Positions 27,620 to 28,348 of a DNA stretch of 41,266 bases are shown here, piece by piece. The notes beneath the pieces are model-generated. The model worked only from the letters and a program-made list of their open reading frames with translations, searched no databases and was not told where the DNA came from. The DNA comes from Geobacteraceae bacterium. Lineage in GTDB: Bacteria > Desulfobacterota > Desulfuromonadia > Desulfuromonadales > BM103. Within the stretch, counting starts at the first letter, position 1; every line of letters begins with the position of its first letter. The position numbers and the translations under genes were made by a program. The DNA lies in NCBI GenBank assembly GCA_024641085.1, contig JAHEDT010000027.1, positions 1-41,266 of the forward strand, in the 5' to 3' direction.

Positions 27620-28270
27620 TTATTTGCAGAGGCTGTCCAGTTTGTTTAAAGTCTCCTCAGGGTCTGGGCGCGTGGTGTGGTCAACGTTGACGGCCGCATC
27701 GTAGACCAGGCCGTTCTGAGCTATGATGTAGCAGGCAGGCATCGGCAGCGTCCAGGAGTCATTGCCGTTGTATCGCTCGAGGTCGATTCCGAAGGAGCGG
27801 TAGATCTCACGCAATTCATCCGGCAAGGTGATCACCAGGCCGAATTTATCGGCGAGAGCATTGTCCTGGTCCACCAGGATCGGCATGGTCAGGTTATGCT
27901 TCTTGGCCTGTTGCCGGGCAAACTCCGGTCGTATCGGGGAGACCGCCAGCAGGGTGGCGCCGCGGTCAAGAATGGGCTGGTGAATCGCTTGCAGAGCTTC
28001 CAGCTCCGCGTTGCAGTAAGGTCACCAGGAGCCACGGTAGAAAGAGAGAATCAGCGGACCATGAGCCAGTATCTCCCTCGAGTTGTATTGCGTGCCCTGC
28101 CAATCGGGCAAGTTGAAATCGGGGGCTTTTCGGCCCGCTCCGAGCGCCATTCCGGTGACGCCGGAAGCCTTGAGCTGTTCGGTCGTACGGCTCATGGTGG
28201 CCGCGGTCTCTGCAGGCAGTTTCGTCCGGGAAGCCGATTTGATCTGCTGCAGGGTTTCCTTCAGAGTCAT
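27620..28270 (-). CDS. Selenocysteine-containing peroxiredoxin-like (AhpC/TSA) protein
   Basis: The gene reads through an in-frame UGA (28024-28022) as selenocysteine, giving a 216-residue thioredoxin-fold peroxiredoxin-like protein with U83. Around it lies LILSFYRGSW-U-PYCNAEL, which matches FYRGxWCPYCNxEL of this family, so the Sec replaces the catalytic cysteine in a UxxC motif (C86 remains). Upstream is MALGAGRKAPDFNLPDWQG; downstream are LLAVSPIRPEFARQQAKKHN, MPILVDQDNALADKFGL and a C-terminal CYIIAQNGLVYDAAVNVDHTTRPDPEE. The frame is the same and open on both sides of the UGA, and a bSECIS stem-loop follows. AAGGA lies six bases before the ATG at 28270. It should reduce peroxides with a thiol partner. 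selA, selB, selC and selD are not in the window. Confidence 0.9.
27991..28024 (-). promoter_or_regulatory. Bacterial SECIS element with the Sec UGA codon
   Basis: After the UGA (28024-28022) come 12 bases, then GCGGAGCU (28009-28002), the loop GGA (28001-27999) and AGCUCUGC (27998-27991), forming an 8-bp stem with one G-U pair. The loop begins 20 bases after the UGA and its first base is G, both within the known limits for bacterial SECIS elements. It lies inside the coding frame (NAELEALQ). SelB is expected to bind the loop. Confidence 0.8.
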
Positions 28271-28348
28271 ATGCAATCCTTTCACACGTTAATCGATGAG
28301 AGGGTAAATTCGCAAAACGTCAGAGAATATCCCGCCCTTGATATCGCT

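Follow-up and report, generated by a model that had tools for sequence, protein, structure and literature searches.

Two adjacent open reading frames in the window (the whole analysed stretch of DNA, 41,266 nt) very probably form one gene, which encodes a 216-residue selenoprotein of the peroxiredoxin-like (Prx-like) family with selenocysteine (Sec) at UGA codon 83. The coordinates of the gene, its active-site codons and the downstream hairpin are listed in Table 1. This reading draws on the continuous frame, the conservation of the UGA among relatives, the codon constraint on the hairpin and the Sec genes of the host genome.

Table 1. Features of the selenoprotein locus in the window
Feature	Position	Strand	Details
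UxxC peroxiredoxin-like selenoprotein gene (probable)	27620..28270	(-)	216 residues; ATG 28270..28268, TAA 27622..27620; Pfam PF00578 1.2e-25; model pLDDT 97.0
AGGA, likely ribosome-binding site for the ATG at 28270	28277..28280	(-)	Letters read directly; probable role
UGA codon, selenocysteine 83 (probable)	28022..28024	(-)	TGA; same column in 21/22 relatives read and 73/79 named loci
Cys86, second residue of the UxxC site	28013..28015	(-)	Invariant (alignment A3, 49 rows); aligns with the peroxidatic Cys of peroxiredoxins
Putative bacterial SECIS hairpin	27991..28009	(-)	8-bp stem, 28009..28002 with 27998..27991; GGA loop 28001..27999

A reading frame that continues across the UGA

The ORF listing gave two fragments, 28285..28022 (87 aa) and 27886..27620 (88 aa), which the original prediction had joined into one gene, with no strand given. 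Both are located on the minus strand and in the same frame, and translation of the TGA as Sec yields a single protein with one internal stop, so the proposed fusion is borne out. Counted from the ATG at 28270, the frame has exactly the predicted 216 codons, and its sole internal stop is the TGA at codon 83 (residue 88 if numbered along the longer translation), in the context FYRGSW-U-PYC. The third-position GC content is 0.71 before the UGA and 0.75 after it. The PF00578 (AhpC-TSA) match runs across the UGA with 90.3 bits, against a cut-off of 26. The 133 stop-free codons after the UGA have a probability of about 0.008 under a base-composition model; the open frame is not due to chance, and conservation adds far more to this than the composition P value. 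The gene neighbours include HisG, PRA-CH, DUF4019 and HIT, among others, and no functional link was found from this neighbourhood. No tRNA or Rfam match was found inside the window.

A genome search covered 98 genomes, including the window's own, and 90 of them matched. Of these matches, 23 loci (L021-L043) were read: the window's own copy (L021) and 22 relatives. TGA occupies exactly the UGA83 column in 21 of the 22 relatives; the other one (L042) has TGC. Reading of ten further stretches around weaker matches showed paralogues, namely TxxU proteins, UPYC proteins with a leader, UPFC proteins and one Cys form. In the class, a profile search at E <= 1e-35 found matches in 60 of 277 genomes; the 20 further regions fetched from these 60 genomes comprised 15 with TGA and five with Cys. 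Named genomes were scanned with the peptide patterns C[NV]AEL[ESD]ALQ and G[IL]DL..., and 79 loci were found, 73 with TGA and six with Cys at the UGA column; this is no estimate of the true ratio, because the patterns were drawn mostly from Sec members. The scan shares some genomes with the 98-genome search, and at least two loci in it, L084 and L131, belong to a single bin. Its Sec loci include those of the cultured Geothermobacter hydrogeniphilus HR-1 and Desulfogranum mediterraneum DSM 13871. Five of the 73 Sec loci have URYC in place of UPYC. All five plasmid homologues fetched have Cys at this column, and so do all other non-TGA forms read. The Cys homologues anticipated at residue 83 in the original prediction therefore exist in every set: one of the 22 relatives, six of the 79 named loci, five of the 20 class members and five of the five plasmid homologues.

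The 79 named loci fall under 14 phylum labels, and the Sec forms, judged by the codon at the site, under 11 of them, including Desulfobacterota, Rokubacteria, Planctomycetota, Acidobacteriota, Nitrospirota and Alphaproteobacteria. These labels were taken from the submitters' titles, for the most part those of metagenome bins, and contamination of the bins may affect them; among them is the NCBI label Myxococcota for 'Deltaproteobacteria bacterium'. A quick tree of 78 rows required two switches between the Sec and Cys states.

Purifying selection is similar on either side of the UGA. The pairwise comparison with a same-genus relative gave a dN/dS of about 0.17 before the UGA (dN 0.105, dS 0.623) and about 0.23 after it (dN 0.106, dS 0.458); none of the nine pairs tried reached a ratio of 0.4 on either side. 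Translation must go on past the UGA.

The downstream hairpin and the selenocysteine machinery

A hairpin (GCGGAGCU-GGA-AGCUCUGC) is located downstream of the UGA, with the stem arms GCGGAGCT and AGCTCTGC. The original prediction was correct on the 8-bp stem, the GGA loop and the agreement with SECIS limits; however, it had placed the stem 20 bases after the UGA, whereas the stem starts at 12 nt and the loop at 20 nt. The rules for bacterial SECIS elements in the legend of Fig 2 of PMC13188914 include a loop of 3-9 nt, an upper stem of 4-16 bp, a G in the first two loop positions, a spacing of 16-37 nt and an MFE <= -7.5. The window hairpin, with its 3-nt loop GGA, 8 bp, 20 nt and -13.7 kcal/mol (42-45 nt), agrees with all four published rules. 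It is a putative bacterial SECIS, for which SelB binding and UGA readthrough are predicted.

The hairpin also codes for A-E-L-E-A-L, and therefore the protein constraint had to be separated from the stem constraint. In 21 Sec orthologues, including the window's (L042 and the distant L043 were left out), 82 columns could be tested for codon freezing. The five with the strongest freezing are exactly those of the stem codons, whereas the loop codon that they enclose varies freely. For comparison with the 73 named Sec genes, codons were resampled in 1000 runs from the pooled usage of these genes, with the protein kept. The full stem is present in 43 of the 73, whereas the shuffles gave 0.6 on average and never more than 4, and the mean number of stem pairs is 7.44 against an expected 5.29. 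GCT is the rarest Ala codon in these genes (60/680), yet it is used in the stem of 67 of them. In 45 sequences (the window plus 44 named Sec loci out of the 73), the covariation of the stem was no higher than in column shuffles: the count of paired cells gave 54/500, and that of pairs with changes on both sides 358/500. Covariation is silent because the stem hardly varies, and codon freezing and protein-preserving shuffles were used in its place. The synonymous freezing, the shuffle and the slid controls all point to nucleotide-level selection on the stem that is separable from selection on the protein.

The core GAGCTG-N3-GCTCTG was found in 55 of the 73 Sec loci versus none of the six Cys loci. 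The mean folding energy of the 42 nt that follow the site is -13.5 kcal/mol in the named Sec loci versus -6.0 in the Cys loci. The five plasmid Cys homologues are likewise without this core; one of them (L186) has a weak fold at the same place (-4.9 kcal/mol), and another (L184) a fold of -12.2 kcal/mol with another shape. The hairpin also varies among the Sec forms. The exact core is absent from 18 of the 73 loci, and only 4-6 of the 8 stem pairs are kept in five of the 73. In 45-nt folds, L030 favours another structure, and L028 and L029 form 7 bp with a 5-nt loop. The hairpin differs in L113, in Phycisphaerae loci and in a second Sec clade; in some relatives it is different or shifted.

The window's genome (151 contigs, 99.5% complete) contains selA (618.6 bits), selB (397.2 bits) and selD (373.9 bits), all above the cut-off and all on one contig (C146). 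Its SelD has an in-frame UGA of its own, read as SSGUAAK. Among the 60 genomes holding the family, selA was found in 57; the remaining three genomes have a completeness of 70-78%, and only the Cys form occurs in one of them. In the 151-contig assembly, selC was not found by covariance model, pattern or blastn. The eight best loci of the Rfam tRNA-Sec covariance model, with 150 of 440 candidates scored, were Trp, Ser, Leu, Tyr, Gly, Thr and Arg tRNAs; blastn with a 119-nt selC of a relative gave five short partial matches only and no tRNA-Sec; and ARAGORN and Rfam found no tRNA-Sec on C146. A clear tRNA-Sec (66-80 bits) is present in nine of the ten relatives examined. The sole exception, in which selC was not found, is G001 of the same genus (87% complete). 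Of the genes that the original prediction proposed to look for, selA, selB and selD are thus present and selC was not found in the draft; the doubt it had attached to a genome lacking selB or selC is removed for selB, and not fully for selC.

In the relative G008, an ORF that we take to be YedF-like, selC and selA lie in a row. The corresponding region upstream of selA in the window's genome (L051 11268-12553) holds other sequence, with neither selC nor the YedF-like ORF, and contig C146 ends 1.3 kb upstream of selA. The YedF-like protein of G008 was not found in the window's genome by a search without a positive control. The contig end 1.3 kb past selA and the missing YedF-like ORF fit an assembly gap, which is a likely, though not proven, cause of the missing selC. 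Between selD and selB, a repeated stretch with a run of N (L051 7446-7984) was observed, which is probably a scaffold gap or a repeat.

Two other explanations of the TGA have to be weighed against a selenoprotein. The objection raised with the original prediction, a sequencing error or recent nonsense mutation, here in a peroxiredoxin-like gene of the Cys type, would be consistent with the CPYC homologues in other bacteria and with the missing selC; however, it is contradicted by the identical TGA in the relatives and in the named loci, by the purifying selection that persists after the TGA and by a downstream hairpin kept against codon-usage expectation. The chance of such an error or mutation is negligible, and a pseudogene or sequencing error is ruled out by the conserved TGA. 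The UGA might also be decoded as an ordinary amino acid such as Trp, by readthrough or by reassignment. A continued frame alone does not identify the residue at the UGA, and the failure to find selC could be taken in the same way. Such decoding is very improbable in view of selA, selB and the UGA-containing SelD in the genome, and of a hairpin that fits the bacterial SECIS rules and whose core is absent from the six Cys loci. The non-TGA forms read at the column are all Cys and none is Trp, which rules out reassignment to Trp.

Predicted fold, active site and family placement

The AlphaFold2 model, built with 49 sequences, has a pLDDT of 97.0 and a pTM of 0.93, and places residue 83 just before the helix 84-95. 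Foldseek ranked Bcp proteins first among solved folds; the VIA-align search ranked AhpE first, with a Z-score of 21.6 and an rmsd of 1.4 over 152 residues (model residues 41-216). Residues 1-40 form a helical extension that is barely covered by the fold alignments. The protein is thus predicted to have a peroxiredoxin fold in which Sec stands where the active-site helix begins. In the sequence alignment, U83 falls on the Thr of the peroxiredoxin TxxC motif and on the first Cys of the thioredoxin-type CPYC motif, and Cys86 falls on what we take to be the peroxidatic Cys of peroxiredoxins. The original prediction had put the UGA at the catalytic Cys of FYRGxW-C-PYC proteins, leaving a UxxC site; the UxxC site is as described, but Sec replaces the thioredoxin-type first Cys, and it is Cys86 that aligns with the peroxidatic Cys.

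The frame, the SECIS constraint, the exchange between Sec and Cys, and selA, selB and selD in the genome can be read from the sequences; the steps of synthesis and catalysis would be as follows. SelB with Sec-tRNA would read UGA83 as Sec, aided by the hairpin that starts 12 nt downstream; if Sec were not inserted, translation would stop at residue 82. In the presumably cytoplasmic protein, Sec83 would most likely be the nucleophile. Its target may be a peroxide, which has somewhat better than even chances, or a disulfide, which has rather lower ones. Cys86 would then resolve Sec83 as an intramolecular selenenylsulfide (Se-S), and thioredoxin or a similar dithiol might reduce the Se-S bond. We infer attack by Sec83 and resolution by Cys86 as the most economical mechanism.

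Two other roles for such a selenoprotein might be considered. It could be a thiol:disulfide oxidoreductase (reductase or isomerase), in which Sec83 attacks disulfides of proteins or small molecules. The thioredoxin-type UxxC motif, the weak ResA and DsbE profile matches and the name in the literature, Prx-like thiol:disulfide oxidoreductase, favour this role; whereas the fold is closest to the peroxiredoxins AhpE and Bcp, and the top Pfam family is AhpC-TSA, neither of which is decisive for activity. It is a serious possibility, although its probability falls short of one half. It is improbable that Cys86 is the peroxidatic residue and Sec83 a fast resolving one: the alignment of Cys86 with the peroxidatic Cys and of Sec83 with Thr would agree with it; however, the TxxU selenoperoxiredoxins of the relatives carry Sec at the peroxidatic position itself, from which Sec is inferred to be usually the nucleophile.

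The gene genuinely belongs to a kind of selenoprotein that has been known in bacteria for about 20 years. The precedent claimed for the class in the original prediction is found in the literature: PMC1088965 describes, as 'Prx-like' from the Sargasso Sea, a peroxiredoxin homologue with a thioredoxin-like UXXC in place of TXXU, and PMC1794560 reports a Prx-like selenoprotein from Geobacter and other deltaproteobacteria. The window protein shares PF00578 and a UxxC site (UPYC) with the Prx-like thiol:disulfide oxidoreductase selenoproteins (PF00578, UxxC or UxxU; reference WP_010940744.1), and matches them on these two features. PrxU (TxxU) has the same fold class, but carries its Sec in the peroxidatic position (TPGU); identity with PrxU is ruled out by the UxxC site and the NCBIfam NF040737 score (23.5 bits versus a cut-off of 270). 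The SelL-related redox proteins are a related redox family with a weak profile match to the window protein, and were rejected (NF040769, 44.3 bits versus 120). No model of NCBIfam (release 20) reached its cut-off for the window protein, and the best E-value on 49 members was 7.6e-17.

The selenoprotein of the peroxiredoxin-like family (AhpC/TSA, cd02970) listed for an Olavius symbiont in Table 1 of PMC13188914 has the motif UxxS, and a 2022 review places an AhpC/TSA UxxS form under pfam13911 (PMC9312934). The window protein differs from the cd02970 selenoprotein in its UPYC motif, with Cys86 invariant in 49 rows. Among the 20 plasmid homologues listed (39.9-48.5% identity), the NCBI names are 'peroxiredoxin-like family protein' for 12 and alkyl hydroperoxide reductase for one, and seven are without a listed feature; the window protein thus has the family name of cd02970 in common with 12 of the 20, but not the motif. 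In Table 1 of this 2026 inventory, cd02970 is given only with UxxS (PMC13188914). A literature search for UPYC with selenocysteine found no paper. The FYRGxW-U-PYC proteins may, with a likelihood approaching one half, represent a subfamily not separately listed in the 2026 inventory, which is spread with a near-frozen SECIS under 11 phylum labels, exchanges Sec and Cys within one genus and changes its hairpin codons once Sec is lost. Gene calling that takes UGA as a stop splits such genes, and no NCBIfam model reaches its cut-off; they are therefore easily missed. The UPYC gene is a well-supported addition to selenoprotein lists.

Exchange of Sec and Cys and related selenoproteins

One genus of the class, within the second Sec clade, has 19 matching genomes; 15 loci were fetched (L188-L202), of which 12 are Sec and three are Cys forms. 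The codons CTT CAG TTG AGG follow the site in all 12 Sec loci and in none of the three Cys loci. Two of the Cys loci have CTG CAG CTG CGT, which encodes the same residues, and the third has TTG CAG TTG CAG, with one residue changed. The mixture of Sec and Cys in one genus is a natural experiment, in which the order of the Sec-to-Cys change and the loss of the SECIS becomes testable.

Other Sec-containing proteins were observed beside the UxxC protein. In one region (L151, G072:C120:38400-40400), two UPYC selenoprotein genes are in tandem, the first with a signal-like leader (FYRGGWUPYCNLQLGEL) and the next leaderless. Leader-bearing copies elsewhere are Sec (L043, L152) or Cys (L150) forms, with the leaders judged by eye. 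The shorter UPFC proteins in L154 and L155 (YRANWUPFC, FYRGHWUPFC) look like another Sec-containing Prx-like group. TxxU selenoperoxiredoxins (e.g. FTPGU, FTPVU) are also encoded in relatives with or without the UxxC protein (L146-L149, L153), and their genes were observed in G001, G005, G008, G013 and G040.
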